64,000 bases of DNA from Dyadobacter sp. 50-39 (lineage in GTDB: Bacteria; Bacteroidota; Bacteroidia; Cytophagales; Spirosomataceae), in contig MKSR01000029.1 in NCBI GenBank assembly GCA_001898145.1, positions 558,001-622,000 on the forward strand. The letters are read 5' to 3'. This document shows, in pieces, positions 38,666 through 43,991 of this stretch. The notes below the pieces were generated by a model. That model had not been told where the DNA came from. It made no database searches and was given only the letters and a program-made list of their open reading frames with translations. The first letter of the stretch is position 1. Every line of letters begins with the position of its first letter. A program made the translations under genes and the position numbers.

Positions 38666-39067
38666 ATGGAAATGATCGAACTGACCGAACAACTTATTGA
38701 ATCAGCCGAGCAACGGTCTGCCGGCCAGCCCTATCCGCAATTTGTGAAGAACCTGAAAGCAATCGGGGTCGATAACTATGAAGTGAAGGTAAAGAACCAC
38801 AAACGTACCTATACGTCCGTTAACGGCGATAAGCTGATCGTACCCGGCGATTTGCCGGAATTCGAATGCGCGGAAGCCTTTGAGCTGGACGAGGTGAAAG
38901 CGGCAATCAAGCGCAATCAGGATGGTATCACCGATTACCCGACATTCCTGCGCGAGATCGGCGCCGCGGGTATACACACCTACGTGGCCGACCTCCGGGG
39001 AATGAAAGTGATTTACCAGGGGCCCAATTCCGAGTATGAATATGAGGAAATGATCCCGGAGGTCTAG
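38666..39067 (+). CDS. DUF1398 family protein
   Basis: A 133-residue cytoplasmic protein with the DUF1398 layout: N-terminal helix, then YPQFVKNLKAIGVDNYEVKV, a short strand pair KRTYTSVNGDKLIVPG, a charged helix VKAAIKRNQDGITDYPTFLREIGAAGI (about 78-104) and a final strand pair HTYVADLRGMKVIYQGP. Homologues are sometimes named phage envelope protein, without evidence here. ATG at 38666 is used (an in-frame GTG lies two codons upstream; another ATG is at 38672). Its stop shares the palindrome CTAG with the convergent threonine aldolase gene. Confidence 0.82.
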   Translation: MEMIELTEQLIESAEQRSAGQPYPQFVKNLKAIGVDNYEVKVKNHKRTYTSVNGDKLIVPGDLPEFECAEAFELDEVKAAIKRNQDGITDYPTFLREIGAAGIHTYVADLRGMKVIYQGPNSEYEYEEMIPEV

Positions 39068-40098
39068 CGGTTTTGCAGCCTTTCGGCCATTATGCCAAGC
39101 AGTTCGTCGGTGAATTCGAGGTGGGTCACAAACCTGACCAAACCCTTCCCGAATGTTACCGCCAGGATTCCGGCTTGACCGAGCCGGCTCACATATTCCA
39201 TTTCGGAAATGCCCTCATTCAGGCGAATGATCACAATGTTGGTATCGACCGGAAATACCTCAGCCACTTCTGCCCTCCCCGCAAATAGCTCCCCTATTTT
39301 CCGGGCACGGCTGTGGTCTTCTTTCAGGCGATCCACATGATGATCGAGTGCATATATGCCGGCTGCCGCGAGGAAACCCGCTTGCCGCCATCCGCCGCCC
39401 ATTACTTTCCGGAAGCGTCGCGCTTCGCGGATCATGTCGCGGGTACCGAGCAGCAATGAGCCCACCGGACACCCCAATCCTTTGGAAAGGCAGATGCTGA
39501 TGCTGTCGAATACCTGGCCGTATTGCGCGGGCGTCTCGCCCGTTTCGACCAATGCATTGAATAGCCTGGCACCGTCCAGGTGCAATGGTATATGTCGGTT
39601 GCTGCAAACCTCGCGGATCGCCTCGATCTCTTTAAAATCGTAGTAACAACCACCGCCCTTATTCATCGTATTTTCCAGCGAAACGAGCCTGGTAACTGTT
39701 GAATGGACATCATTTTCGGGGCTTATCGCATCGCTGACCTGCTGAGCCGAAAGCCTGCCACGGTCGCCGTCGAGCAGTTTTACGGACGAAAAGGCATTGA
39801 GCATAATGCCCCCGCCTTCGTACAGGTAAATATGCGAATGCTTGTCGCAGATGACATCGCTTCCAGGACGGGTGTGTATACGGATTGCGAGTTGATTGGT
39901 CATGGTGCCGGATGGGCAGAAAAGCGCATCCTCCATTCCAAAGAGCCTGGCAGCCTTTTCCTGCAATGCATTCACGGTAGGATCGTCGCCAAAAACATCG
40001 TCGCCTACTTCCGCGCTCCACATGGCTTCCAGCATTTCGCGGGTAGGCCTGGTAATCGTGTCGCTGCGCAAGTCAATTTTCGTTTCAAAAGCATTCAT
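39064..40098 (-). CDS. ltaE: Low-specificity L-threonine aldolase (PLP-dependent)
   Basis: A 344-residue fold-type I PLP enzyme that cleaves threonine and allo-threonine to glycine and acetaldehyde. It opens with IDLRSDTITRPTREMLEAM, followed by VGDDVFGDDPTVN, FCPSGTMTNQLAI (cofactor phosphate region), KHSHIYLYEGGG (His stacking on PLP), HLDGARLFNAL (about 172-182; Asp pairing with pyridine N and Arg) and SICLSKGLGCPVGS with the Schiff-base Lys in LSKGLG (about 207). ATG at 40098 gives the family start; 20 extra residues of the longer frame are unlikely. Convergent overlap of four bases with the DUF1398 gene. Confidence 0.94.
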   Translation of the reverse strand: MNAFETKIDLRSDTITRPTREMLEAMWSAEVGDDVFGDDPTVNALQEKAARLFGMEDALFCPSGTMTNQLAIRIHTRPGSDVICDKHSHIYLYEGGGIMLNAFSSVKLLDGDRGRLSAQQVSDAISPENDVHSTVTRLVSLENTMNKGGGCYYDFKEIEAIREVCSNRHIPLHLDGARLFNALVETGETPAQYGQVFDSISICLSKGLGCPVGSLLLGTRDMIREARRFRKVMGGGWRQAGFLAAAGIYALDHHVDRLKEDHSRARKIGELFAGRAEVAEVFPVDTNIVIIRLNEGISEMEYVSRLGQAGILAVTFGKGLVRFVTHLEFTDELLGIMAERLQNR

Positions 40099-40200
40099 GG
40101 GGTATTCGTTGCGATTTCCCGCCAAATTAATGCTTAAAGCTGATTTCCGGGCAGGCATTGCTTACTTTAAACGGGTATATTGCAGGCAAAATCAACCCAT

Positions 40201-40383
40201 ATGGAATTCGAGGAATATCTGAAGGCGAAAAAAATAGATGCGGCGGCGTTCAAAAAAGGCGATGTATTACGCTATCAGGAATGGAGCGGCCTGTTTGAAA
40301 CCATGCATCCGGAAAGCTTCACCGCCCATAAGAAATTCCTGATCAACGAAATACGCCGCCGGTACTTGCTCAAAGAGGACTAA
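40201..40383 (+). CDS. Small conserved hypothetical protein
   Basis: A 60-residue basic, helical protein starting MEFEEYLKAKKIDAAAF and ending RRRYLLKED. No signal peptide or membrane segment. The pattern WSGLFETMHPESFTAHKKFL (about 30-49) looks like a conserved helical hairpin seen in small Cytophagales proteins, but I cannot name a family. Start ATG at 40201 is preferred to an upstream TTG (40180). It overlaps the stop of the convergent flavoprotein gene by four bases (40380-40383). Confidence 0.6.
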   Translation: MEFEEYLKAKKIDAAAFKKGDVLRYQEWSGLFETMHPESFTAHKKFLINEIRRRYLLKED

Positions 40384-41528
40384 CCCTTCATTTCCTCCAT
40401 CAGTTTCATCAATATCCCGACAGTCTTCTCGGTCTGTTCTTTGCTGGGCGTCGTATCCCAGTTCCCTACAATGCCATTGCTCCCGATGTAAATGCCGTCT
40501 TTCCGCGCAATGAAGTTAGCTCCCTGGGTGTACAATTTGTAATTCACATCGCCCTGCGGAATAAGGCAGGACAGTTGCCCGGAAACCGGTGTGAGTTCTT
40601 CGTCGTTGAAAACCGGCTTGGCACCCAGCCCCATGCAGTTCACGACCACCTTTTCGGGCAATGCGTCGATATCTTCCAGCTTTTTGATTTCGTGAATCTT
40701 CACCTTCCCGCCAAACATGGTGAAATCCTGCAACTGGTGCCGCAGGTAAGTGGGAATATTGAACATGATATTGGTGCGGCGTGTCACATAGTCCGCCTTG
40801 AAAGGGTGTTCCTTCTTTTCCAGCCGCACGCGCTCGGGCAGCAGGCCTTCTATCTCGAACTCCTCCCCGCCGGCACCCGGTGAGTATACCGGTACCTGCT
40901 TAAAAACGCTGTATTCTTCCGCCCAGGTGGCGATGTCGTTCATCCCCAGCAGGAACTGGAACCTGCGGAACGAAAACCGCGTGGCATCCTCCCATATGGC
41001 CTGAAACTCCGGTTTGGCAATCTTCTTATCACATACCCTCGACGCCGGCGACCAGGTGCCGGTAGCGAGGTTACTCGTTACGTTGGGCGGTACGTCTTTC
41101 GTGTAAATGGTCACCTCGCAGCCACTTTCCTGCAACAGCCGCGATGTGGCAATACCAACCGTCCCGCACCCCAGCACCGCAATCTTCTTCTCTCCCGTCG
41201 CCAGCACATTCTTCCGTGCGATGTTGCCCGTACCCCATGACAGCGACCAACCGCTCCCACCGTGCCCGTAATTGTGTACGATCGTCTTATTACCCAGTTG
41301 CTCCACATCCAGCCTCGGCCCCGAAGCCCGGAAAGGCCGTAACCCGACCGTTTCCTTCACAATGCGGTCCATCGAAAGGCGTAATTTGGGAATGTGGTGG
41401 TAACCCCGGCTGATGTGAAAATGCTTGTCGGGATATTTCAACTCGGCTCGTGGTGCGCATGAAGACGCCACCGCGCCTAATGCGAAGCTGGCCGGGATGG
41501 CTTTTTCAAAAAAATTTCTGCGGTTCAT
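40380..41528 (-). CDS. D-amino-acid-oxidase-like FAD oxidoreductase with circularly permuted domain order
   Basis: A 382-residue exported flavoprotein: twin-arginine-like leader MNRRNFFEKAIPASFALG, lipobox-like ASSC (Cys 24). Every landmark of DAO (PF01266-type) oxidases is present, but in shifted order. The segment that is C-terminal in ordinary D-amino-acid oxidases (RIVKETVGLRPFRASGPRL, 55-73; HNYGHGGSGWSLSWG, 85-99) comes first. The normally N-terminal FAD loop follows (KIAVLGCGTVGIATSRLL, 115-132), then LATGTWSPAS (154-163), VVVNCMGLGAK (294-304), TPVSGQLS (313-320) and IYIGSNGIVGNW (346-357). The chain ends exactly where the first segment would continue. FAD-binding residues look intact, so it is probably active, in the periplasm, on an unknown amine or amino acid. 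Confidence 0.88.
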   Translation of the reverse strand: MNRRNFFEKAIPASFALGAVASSCAPRAELKYPDKHFHISRGYHHIPKLRLSMDRIVKETVGLRPFRASGPRLDVEQLGNKTIVHNYGHGGSGWSLSWGTGNIARKNVLATGEKKIAVLGCGTVGIATSRLLQESGCEVTIYTKDVPPNVTSNLATGTWSPASRVCDKKIAKPEFQAIWEDATRFSFRRFQFLLGMNDIATWAEEYSVFKQVPVYSPGAGGEEFEIEGLLPERVRLEKKEHPFKADYVTRRTNIMFNIPTYLRHQLQDFTMFGGKVKIHEIKKLEDIDALPEKVVVNCMGLGAKPVFNDEELTPVSGQLSCLIPQGDVNYKLYTQGANFIARKDGIYIGSNGIVGNWDTTPSKEQTEKTVGILMKLMEEMKG

Positions 41529-41675: not shown

Positions 41676-43991
41676 TCAGTTTTTAGAAAGTGAAAATGGC
41701 ATATCGGCATCCTGGACGCCCCATTGCTTATTGGGCTTATCCCCCATTTGCAGTATCAGTGTACCGCCTTTAAGCAGCTCTCCGTGCGTAATGTACGTTC
41801 GGGTAAATGGCTTGCCATTGAATACAGCCGATTGAATGTAGCGCGCCTGGTCGGAAACACCCTTGGCCTTGACGGTGAACTTGCGGTTCTTGCCGGTATC
41901 TATTGTCATTTCTTCAAAAACGGGGCTTCCGAGCACATACTGGTCGGTGCCGGGTGCTACCGGGTAAAAACCCATCATGCTGAACGCCAGCCAGGCCGAC
42001 ATTTGGCCGCCATCCTCATTGCCGCTCAGCCCGCCTACGCGGGTATCATATTCGCTCCGGATAATCGTGCGCGTCCATTGCTGCGTTTTCCAGGGCTGGC
42101 CTGCAAAAGCATAGAGATAGGCAATCTGGTGATTGGGCTCATTGCCATGCCAGTAATGCCCCTGGTTGAACAAGGTATCCAGTTTGGCCGTGAACCCCGC
42201 TTTCCCGCCCATGATCTTTTCCAGCCCGGCGATGTCCTGCGGCACAAACCAGGTGTATTGCGCTGGCGAGCCTTCGGTAATAAAGCTCGCCCGCTTGGCA
42301 AAGGGATCAAAATCAGCAATCCAGCGACCGTCGGCATACCTTCCGCGTGCATAGCCCGTCGAAGGATCGATCACGTTCCGGTAGTTCAATGCCCGGGCAC
42401 GCAGTTGGTCGGCGTCTTCCTTTTTGCCAAGGCCTGTGGCCAGGGTAGAAAGGCAAAAATCATCGTATGCATATTCGAGCGTGCGGGATACCTGCTCGCG
42501 CTTGTGAAATGCCTGCCATACGCTGTCTTCGAGTGGAACATAACCATATTGTAAATAGGATTTAAGCGCCCGGCGTCCCTGCCCGGCTTCGTAGCTCTTG
42601 GCATTGGTATTCACCTCAAATGCATTCTTGCGCAGGAAATGATAGGCGCTGTTCACATCGAAGTTCCTTACATTCTTTACATAGGCATCGGCGATGACCG
42701 ATATCCCATGGTCGCCTACCATCGCTGCCGTGTAGTGATTCCAGCAAGGAAAAATGGGCATCCACCCACCCTGCTCGGCTTTTTTCACGAGCGACTGCAC
42801 CATATCGCCGGCGCGTTTCGGTTCGAGTATGATACCCAGGGGCATCGCCGCCCGGAAGCTGTCCCACATACTGAAATCGCAATAGTAGTCAAACCCCTCG
42901 GCCTTCTGCAACGGCGTACCGCCCGCAAACGACGGATAGCTGCCGTCTACATCGGAGAGTAGCCTTGGCGATAGCTTCGTTCTGTACAATGCACTGTAAA
43001 AAAGCGCTTTGTCATCATCGCTGCCTGTAACGGCAACCTTGCCTAATGCCTCGTTCCACGCATCGCGGGCCAACTTCCTAACCGCCTCGAACTGCTTATT
43101 TCCCAGTTCCTTTTCAAGATTCGCGCGGGCGCCTTCTATACTCGTGAATGAAGTGCCGATGCGGGCAGTAACCACCTGCTTTTCGTCCCCAAAACCGACA
43201 TACGCCCCTAGCTTTTCCCGGTTGCCCTTTCCGGTCAGGATCCGTCCCATCGGCGTAATGGTATCGCCCAGCCACACCCCCGATTGCATGAATTTTTTGT
43301 CAAATTTGATTACAAAATACCCACTGATACCCGCCGGCTGTCCTGAGCCCTGGTAAATGCGGTGAACGGGATTATAACCGACAATTTCGCCGCGCTCACG
43401 CAGTACCTCCACAAACCCCTCTCCTTCGTCGCTATTAGGTTCGATGATGATAAATGACTCGTCACCGCTGTCGAACTTGAAGCGCATCATCGCGGTACGG
43501 GCGAGGGCTGTCACCTCGGCGTTGATCTGATGGTCCTGCAACCAAACGCTGTAATGCTCGGGCGTGCTTTGCTCCTTATCGTGGCTGAAAACGCTTGCCC
43601 TTCCTTCGGGATTGGGAATGAGCTCACCCGAAAGCGGCATCACCGTCACCGAGCCGTAATCCTGCACGCAAGATCCGTTCAGCCAGTGCGTGCCCCGGAA
43701 GCCCTGAAATTTGTTATCATTGTAATAAAACGGCGCAATGCATTTGGTTTCTGTCGCGCGCGTCTGCGGCGTCCATTGGGTCATACCATTCGGTACACCT
43801 ACGGCAGGAATTGTCTGCCCTTTCAACTCGCTGCCTGCCTCGCTATGCGTTTTGGCACTCTCTGTGGCCGACGGCGCCGTACCAATCATGGTAGCCACGT
43901 AATCGACGGGCATTTTCTGTGCATAGGACTGATTATCAATCAAAAACGTCGAAAATAATATAAAACTGACTCGGAGGAACGGAACGCGCAT
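41676..43991 (-). CDS. GH92 family glycosyl hydrolase (alpha-mannosidase)
   Basis: A 771-residue exported enzyme with signal peptide to about residue 24 (NQSYAQ). GH92 enzymes are calcium-dependent exo-acting alpha-mannosidases acting on N-glycan or yeast mannan branches. Landmarks are VDYVATMIGT at the mature N-terminus, AVGVPNGMTQWTPQTRA, FRGTHWLNGSCVQDYGS (about 94-110), YCDFSMWDSFRAAMPL (about 361-376), the HGNEPNHQIAYLYAFAGQPW stretch (about 622-641, catalytic base region) and GLSGNEDGGQMSAWLAFSMMGFYPV (in two parts, GLSGNEDGGQMSAWL and FSMMGFYPV). Length is typical. No neighbouring SusCD pair; the two flanking genes are a flavoprotein and an MBL hydrolase. Confidence 0.94.
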   Translation of the reverse strand: MRVPFLRVSFILFSTFLIDNQSYAQKMPVDYVATMIGTAPSATESAKTHSEAGSELKGQTIPAVGVPNGMTQWTPQTRATETKCIAPFYYNDNKFQGFRGTHWLNGSCVQDYGSVTVMPLSGELIPNPEGRASVFSHDKEQSTPEHYSVWLQDHQINAEVTALARTAMMRFKFDSGDESFIIIEPNSDEGEGFVEVLRERGEIVGYNPVHRIYQGSGQPAGISGYFVIKFDKKFMQSGVWLGDTITPMGRILTGKGNREKLGAYVGFGDEKQVVTARIGTSFTSIEGARANLEKELGNKQFEAVRKLARDAWNEALGKVAVTGSDDDKALFYSALYRTKLSPRLLSDVDGSYPSFAGGTPLQKAEGFDYYCDFSMWDSFRAAMPLGIILEPKRAGDMVQSLVKKAEQGGWMPIFPCWNHYTAAMVGDHGISVIADAYVKNVRNFDVNSAYHFLRKNAFEVNTNAKSYEAGQGRRALKSYLQYGYVPLEDSVWQAFHKREQVSRTLEYAYDDFCLSTLATGLGKKEDADQLRARALNYRNVIDPSTGYARGRYADGRWIADFDPFAKRASFITEGSPAQYTWFVPQDIAGLEKIMGGKAGFTAKLDTLFNQGHYWHGNEPNHQIAYLYAFAGQPWKTQQWTRTIIRSEYDTRVGGLSGNEDGGQMSAWLAFSMMGFYPVAPGTDQYVLGSPVFEEMTIDTGKNRKFTVKAKGVSDQARYIQSAVFNGKPFTRTYITHGELLKGGTLILQMGDKPNKQWGVQDADMPFSLSKN

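Follow-up and report, generated by a model that had tools for sequence, protein, structure and literature searches.

The question raised by this locus is whether the chain of a D-amino acid oxidase (DAAO) has been circularly permuted in nature. Few flavoenzymes have been studied as much as DAAO, and the order of its chain serves as a diagnostic feature; passages of a 2022 survey (PMC9844085) require the FAD-binding GxGxxG at the N terminus. The window analyzed here, a stretch of 64,000 nucleotides from Dyadobacter sp. 50-39 (contig MKSR01000029.1), encodes a protein that departs from this rule, with the motif present but internal at residues 120-125, and we thus file it as a permuted variant and not as a canonical DAAO member. 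A sequence-only reading had proposed that this gene specifies a working, naturally permuted DAAO-type flavoenzyme with a twin-arginine-like leader.

A circularly permuted D-amino acid oxidase chain

The list of open reading frames and the translation agree with the proposed placement of the gene, a 382-amino-acid frame with an ATG start codon at 40380-41528 on the minus strand. Along the translated protein stand VGLRPFR (61-67), HNYGHGG (85-91), GxGxxG (120-125), VNCMGLG and, near the C terminus, GNW, so that GxRPxR and GHGG indeed precede the FAD loop and GNW comes last. The closest named relatives in the genome scan are from Dyadobacter, at up to 97% identity. The features of the gene are as follows.

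40380-41528 (-), whole gene, circularly permuted DAO-type flavoenzyme, 382 amino acids (ORF list, translation, relatives of the same order)
41451-41528 (-), Tat-like leader, residues 1-26, with R3-R4 and a lipobox-like ASSC (Cys24) (sequence; pattern common to clade Ib)
41202-41384 (-), former C-terminal segment, now N-terminal, residues 49-109, with the GxRPxR strand, YGHGG and the last helix (canonical profile; C-terminal segment of PDB DAAO and D-aspartate oxidase chains)
41337-41339 (-), Arg64, counterpart of the DAAO substrate-carboxylate Arg (alignment to PDB chains; invariant in a 33-sequence alignment)
41256-41270 (-), YGHGG, residues 87-91 (sequence; invariant in the same alignment)
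41190-41225 (-), junction of the old C terminus and old N terminus, residues 102-113, with almost no linker (motif spacing; structure model)
40383-41201 (-), former N-terminal and central part, now C-terminal, residues 110-382, from the FAD loop to the helix after GNW (canonical profile; Pfam DAO 1-297)
41154-41171 (-), FAD-binding GxGxxG, here GCGTVG, residues 120-125 (sequence; three glycines invariant in the same alignment)
40515-40517 (-), Asn338 at the position of the DAAO active-site Tyr (family alignment; a phmmer pairwise alignment would give Phe339)

Profile comparison demonstrates the rearrangement directly. On a profile of canonical bacterial DAAOs (320 positions), residues 114-380 of the window protein match positions 4-261 (101.9 bits) and residues 49-101 match positions 259-308 (44.4 bits). 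The profile is thus covered once from 4 to 308, with the order swapped, no gap and a three-position overlap, only its outermost ends being unmatched. This profile was built from 14 bacterial DAAOs, comprising those found first by a search with the permuted profile plus L181, and its members were therefore picked for some likeness to the permuted family. The Pfam DAO profile (PF01266) scores 77.3 bits against a gathering score of 27.9, split over two stretches, and five of five other family members scanned are split in the same way. In the genome search, profile positions 1-299 were matched and positions 285-350 were found upstream within the same open frame.

Comparison with proteins of known structure gives the same picture. 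By phmmer, residues 114-369 align to positions 13-263 of human D-aspartate oxidase (DASPO; 6rkf) and residues 57-104 to positions 280-330; with the family profile, the two 6rkf stretches have i-Evalues of 5.4e-22 and 9.2e-10. Among the matches listed for the family profile there are 33 distinct PDB sequences, 17 of them DAAO or DASPO, and in none of the 33 does the best stretch span both segments. A natural circular permutation covers its parent once, with the segments swapped and the old termini joined, which is what we find here. In the window protein the D-amino acid oxidase chain has undergone circular permutation in nature, and it now begins and ends at a point between the GxRPxR strand and the helix that follows GNW; relatives from four phyla with the same order and two confident structure models agree with the permutation first read from the motifs.

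Two other explanations of the unusual order would make it only apparent. The first 110 residues could be an unrelated domain that merely resembles a DAO tail, a reading for which the sequence comparisons yielded no support. Taken alone, these residues score 48.1 bits to the canonical profile, in its tail, against at most 0.6 bits for 200 shuffles of the same residues; the family profile matches the 6rkf tail at 9.2e-10; and the tail segment is missing at the C terminus, which is why the canonical profile is covered only once. We regard a separate N-terminal fold as very improbable. An assembly artefact, frameshift or pseudogene has a still smaller probability, close to nil, even though broken copies occur in one congener (G013) and on one Mesorhizobium plasmid, since intact and strongly conserved copies are found across many separate assemblies. 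On the profile scores and these intact copies, the unrelated domain, the artefact and the pseudogene were all rejected.

The permuted chain is also modelled with confidence. AlphaFold2, run on residues 28-382 with the 33-sequence alignment, gave a pLDDT of 88.1 and a pTM of 0.87, with block mean pLDDT values of 81-98 over the moved segment (model residues 21-110). An Eremiobacterota member (L084, 36% identical) gave 89.0 and 0.89, the alignments for the two models sharing most rows so that the models are not independent. From the overall confidence of these models we infer that GHGG would pack against the FAD loop. The best 33 Foldseek matches of each model are all DAAO or DASPO chains, with TM scores (query length) of 0.56-0.61 and 0.56-0.64; these alignments follow chain order and mainly tested residues 115-382 (TM about 0.6). 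In the window model, the helix after GHGG spans residues 90-109 and ends five residues before the first Rossmann strand (115-119). The old termini are accordingly joined, as had been proposed, although the short linker envisaged at about residues 100-114 shrinks to hardly any linker at all.

By sequence and fold, DAAO and DASPO (human DAAO 2du8, human DASPO 6rkf; PF01266) are the best matches of the permuted protein. They share with it the FAD loop, VNC.G.G, the carboxylate Arg of GxRPxR and YGHGG, and they differ from it in segment order, in the Tat-like leader of the window's clade and in the active-site Tyr, which Asn replaces. The nearest sequence relatives found are bacterial canonical DAAOs, which share GLRPxR and HNYGHGG with some variation, whereas their GHGG lies near the C terminus and their GxGxxG near the N terminus, and the tree sets them apart from the permuted sequences. 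Glycine oxidase ThiO (TIGR02352) and D-amino acid dehydrogenase DadA (NF001933) belong to the same superfamily, have the canonical order and match only weakly and partially (27.4 bits against a cutoff of 250.8, and 23.2 bits against 383, respectively). "D-amino-acid-oxidase type" was an apt description as to sequence and descent.

Natural permutation as such has precedents: passages of PMC3779223 describe one between the barrels of PutA proline dehydrogenase and MTHFR in the FAD-linked oxidoreductase superfamily, likewise flavoenzymes but barrels and not the two-domain DAO fold. Permutation within the DAO fold is new so far as our searches show. No published description of a permuted DAAO or DAO fold was found in the open-access literature, a scope to which subscription papers and preprints mostly do not belong. 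If the present reading is true, this is within that literature the first described natural permutation of the DAO fold, and the halves that contact FAD and substrate can be re-ordered while the conserved motifs are kept.

Occurrence and origin of the permuted order

Relatives with the same order occur in Bacteroidota, Pseudomonadota, Eremiobacterota and Actinomycetota, the last by one record, so that the search for homologues of like order that had been suggested was fruitful. The re-ordering is common to several phyla and thus seems to be ancient and functional rather than the mark of a damaged gene. The genome scan matched 59 loci. In a BLASTP set of 83 loci, of which 22 come from a relatives search and may duplicate genes of that scan, 80 gave a single match over both segments in permuted order; the exceptions are the two halves of one broken gene (L031 and L032, residues 114-382 only) and a fragment without any match (L088). 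GHGG stands 32-37 residues ahead of GxGxxG in all 93 distinct permuted frames, the window's included, and far after it in all 15 canonical frames. These frames come from L009 and from L060 upward, L010-L059 being covered by the BLASTP check; the fragmentary or split L088, L157 and L182 were left out, and frames whose long segments were identical counted as one, while near-identical ones were kept. GxGxxG was sought 26-44 residues after GHGG and was present in every permuted frame.

Among the genomes of 39 relatives the gene is present in 23, namely in 23 of 25 from the same genus (its own included, one copy broken) and in none of 14 others of the order. Matches were found in 66 of 200 genomes of the window's family, every one covering both segments, and in 16 of 395 genomes of its phylum (2 permuted, 14 canonical). 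Elsewhere, 15 of 149 Eremiobacterota genomes matched (one copy cut short by a stop), as did 20 of 398 from Pseudomonadota (both segments covered in all) and 3 of 197 from the order of the Pseudoalteromonas genome. Eight plasmid records matched. Five carry a permuted gene (Niveispirillum, Kozakia, Rhizobium, Bradyrhizobium and the actinomycete Nonomuraea), a Mesorhizobium record has a split permuted gene, and two from Streptomyces, L181 and another, are canonical. A search with the canonical profile matched 10 of 299 Pseudomonadota genomes, all ten being permuted genes already found, and 14 of 147 Eremiobacterota genomes, 2 of them canonical; Pseudomonadota nevertheless do have canonical genes, Burkholderia glumae and Vibrio coralliilyticus being two examples.

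Some copies depart from the single intact gene. One genome of the window's family has two permuted copies (G443:C138 and G443:C169; L219), the second scoring 385 bits and more distant. The copy of congener G013 (C2:2749334-2750478) is broken: its match spans two frames and contains a stop, so that the gene is probably dispensable in that congener. In Mesorhizobium onobrychidis (L182, 2777-3840) two overlapping frames make up a split permuted gene, the break falling near the FAD loop, and the halves are annotated as two oxidoreductases. Recognition of the order exposes this family, whose members the annotated plasmid records name only "FAD-dependent oxidoreductase."

The junction is nearly constant. 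From the start of GHGG to GxGxxG the distance is 33 residues in 85 of the 93 permuted frames, 37 in five, and 32, 34 and 35 in one each. In canonical frames (n = 15), 21-31 residues lie between the start of GHGG and the stop, so that the junction amounts to the old tail plus a few residues.

For phylogeny, the 93 frames were thinned to 57 and trees were computed from column-joined alignments, the second with 55 permuted sequences (without L061 and L126). The permuted sequences form the following sets.

Set Ia, 14 sequences: 13 from Pseudomonadota (e.g. Dyella, Niveispirillum) and L156 from an Eremiobacterota genome
Set Ib, 20 sequences: Cytophagales, window protein included
Set II, 18 sequences: 11 from Eremiobacterota and 7 from Pseudomonadota, including Pseudoalteromonas
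Set III, 5 sequences: Rhizobium, Bradyrhizobium, Nonomuraea and two more from Pseudomonadota

The first tree separates 57 permuted from 15 canonical sequences with a UFBoot of 100, and the second separates 55 from 24 (L094-L107, L181, L233, L234 and L247-L253) with SH-aLRT/UFBoot of 100/100; neither includes eukaryotic sequences, and a wider tree could change the picture. Such a fully supported split is as would be expected of a single origin, and the permuted family probably goes back to one ancient event. A rival reading, in which the chain was permuted more than once at one and the same cut point, could account for the 37-residue spacing of those five frames, seen also in group III sequences, and for the absence of the leader from most of group III, but the permuted sequences lie on one side of the split in both trees and the cut point is identical throughout, and repeated origin is therefore improbable.

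The most likely route to the permuted order would be that the gene was duplicated in tandem and in frame and then lost its outer parts. Two copies of GHGG occurred in none of the permuted or canonical frames examined, so that no duplicated intermediate was seen. With such a family, ideas on the order of folding, and on duplication as a source of permutation, can be tested anew.

Neighboring genes

In the window, the permuted gene is flanked by a GH92 glycosidase gene (41676-43991, minus strand) and by a threonine-aldolase-type PLP enzyme gene (39064-40158, minus strand; Pfam Beta_elim_lyase). A 60-amino-acid frame (40201-40383, plus strand) converges with the permuted gene, and its end shares three bases with the stop of that gene. 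Across 31 Dyadobacter loci, the GH92 gene is nearby in 23, the 60-amino-acid frame in 23 and the threonine aldolase in 26; none of the three was found at any of the 28 other loci of L033-L091. Clustering of neighbors joined at most three loci. A conserved operon was rejected, as no functional neighbor is kept across genera in the loci examined, bar the rhizobial plasmids. A simple gene caller missed the permuted gene itself in 15 of 46 loci, mostly GC-rich ones, for which reason the support for a lack of synteny outside Bacteroidota is weak.

On three of three rhizobial plasmids (L176, 2491-6717; L178, 2363-6690; L182, 2777-5639) the permuted gene directly precedes a gene for a TPP-dependent enzyme, and in two of them an FAD-binding oxidoreductase gene lies upstream, of the berberine-bridge type by Pfam in the Rhizobium copy. 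This arrangement hints at a biosynthetic cluster.

A general cytochrome c partner was likewise considered and rejected. In a scan of 78 loci, several of them cut by contig ends, a CxxCH frame within 1.5 kb downstream was convincing only in Kozakia baliensis (L179, 3860-5520), where an annotated cytochrome c gene directly follows the permuted gene. That cytochrome is possibly the electron acceptor in this species. CxxCH frames of 372, 363 and 366 amino acids lie upstream in L070, L072 and L073, respectively, and short ones in L209 (upstream) and L073 (downstream) look like chance.

Active site, export and probable function

Bacterial DAAOs conserve GxRPxR and YGHGGxG according to passages of the 2022 survey (PMC9844085), which also notes the two motifs in some glycine oxidases. 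The window protein carries both, as GLRPFR (62-67) and YGHGGSG (87-93), and Arg64, YGHGG and three glycines of the FAD loop are invariant across the 33 aligned sequences. This conservation supports the proposal that the permuted gene may encode a working enzyme. As the human DAAO counterparts of the carboxylate Arg and the active-site Tyr we take R283 and Y228.

The Tyr position tells a more varied story. Tyr occupies it in all 15 canonical sequences examined (of 24), in 18 of 18 sequences of set II and 5 of 5 of set III, in 3 of 20 of Ib and in 0 of 14 of Ia. In the window protein it is Asn338 by the family alignment or Phe339 by the phmmer pairwise alignment, a non-Tyr residue either way. 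Since the Tyr is mostly lost in the window's clade, the substrate there may be another than in classical DAAO, and it is not assured that the window protein oxidizes D-amino acids.

The twin-arginine-like leader that had been pointed out is present as a sequence motif (MNRRNFF, later ASSC24). Scored by a simple pattern on stop-to-stop frames and not by a trained predictor, RRx[FLIVM] with a hydrophobic run occurs in 20 of 20 sequences of Ib, 11 of 14 of Ia, 9 of 18 of II and 1 of 5 of III, and a lipobox-like Cys in 18, 9, 6 and 0 of them, respectively. Judged by these patterns, leaders of the window's clade appear Tat-like and mostly lipoprotein-like.

We propose that the chain would fold into the usual two-domain DAO shape and bind FAD through GCGTVG. 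Arg64 would hold the substrate carboxylate beside the flavin, and an amino or imino acid would be oxidized at its C-N bond, FAD taking up the hydride. For the window's clade, the leader suggests that Tat probably exports the enzyme in folded form and that a lipid probably anchors it, with electrons passing to oxygen or to a membrane acceptor. Taken together, a permuted DAO chain from one ancient event, FAD-linked oxidation of amino or imino acids and Tat export are very probably the best explanation of the locus. A broader claim, that a single ancient permutation founded a separate, widespread DAO-fold family, much of it, the window's clade included, Tat-exported to the cell surface and acting on amino or imino acids with a rebuilt active site, stands in our view at an even chance.

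It is also conceivable, if somewhat doubtful, that the permuted fold is no longer an amino acid oxidase and instead acts on another amine, serves as a biosynthetic dehydrogenase or has lost catalysis. The active-site Tyr is missing in 31 of 34 group I sequences (17 of 20 in Ib and 14 of 14 in Ia), and on the two rhizobial plasmids where the gene sits between the FAD-binding oxidoreductase and the TPP enzyme a biosynthetic role is suggested. Against such a change of function, Arg64, YGHGG and the FAD-loop glycines are all retained without exception in the 33-sequence alignment, and the same survey (PMC9844085, in the passages concerned) finds that the Tyr is not conserved among DAAOs, unlike the Arg-Pro pair; it places the two residues of one yeast DAAO at R285 and Y223. 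Under the preferred reading, that of an amino or imino acid oxidase, the permuted family may supply exported enzymes with a different pocket.

A permuted member is also present in Pseudoalteromonas luteoviolacea (L085, L086). A passage of a 2015 review (PMC4699246) mentions that this species has an L-amino acid oxidase with antibacterial action, its gene unreported at that time, and a link between the two is speculation.
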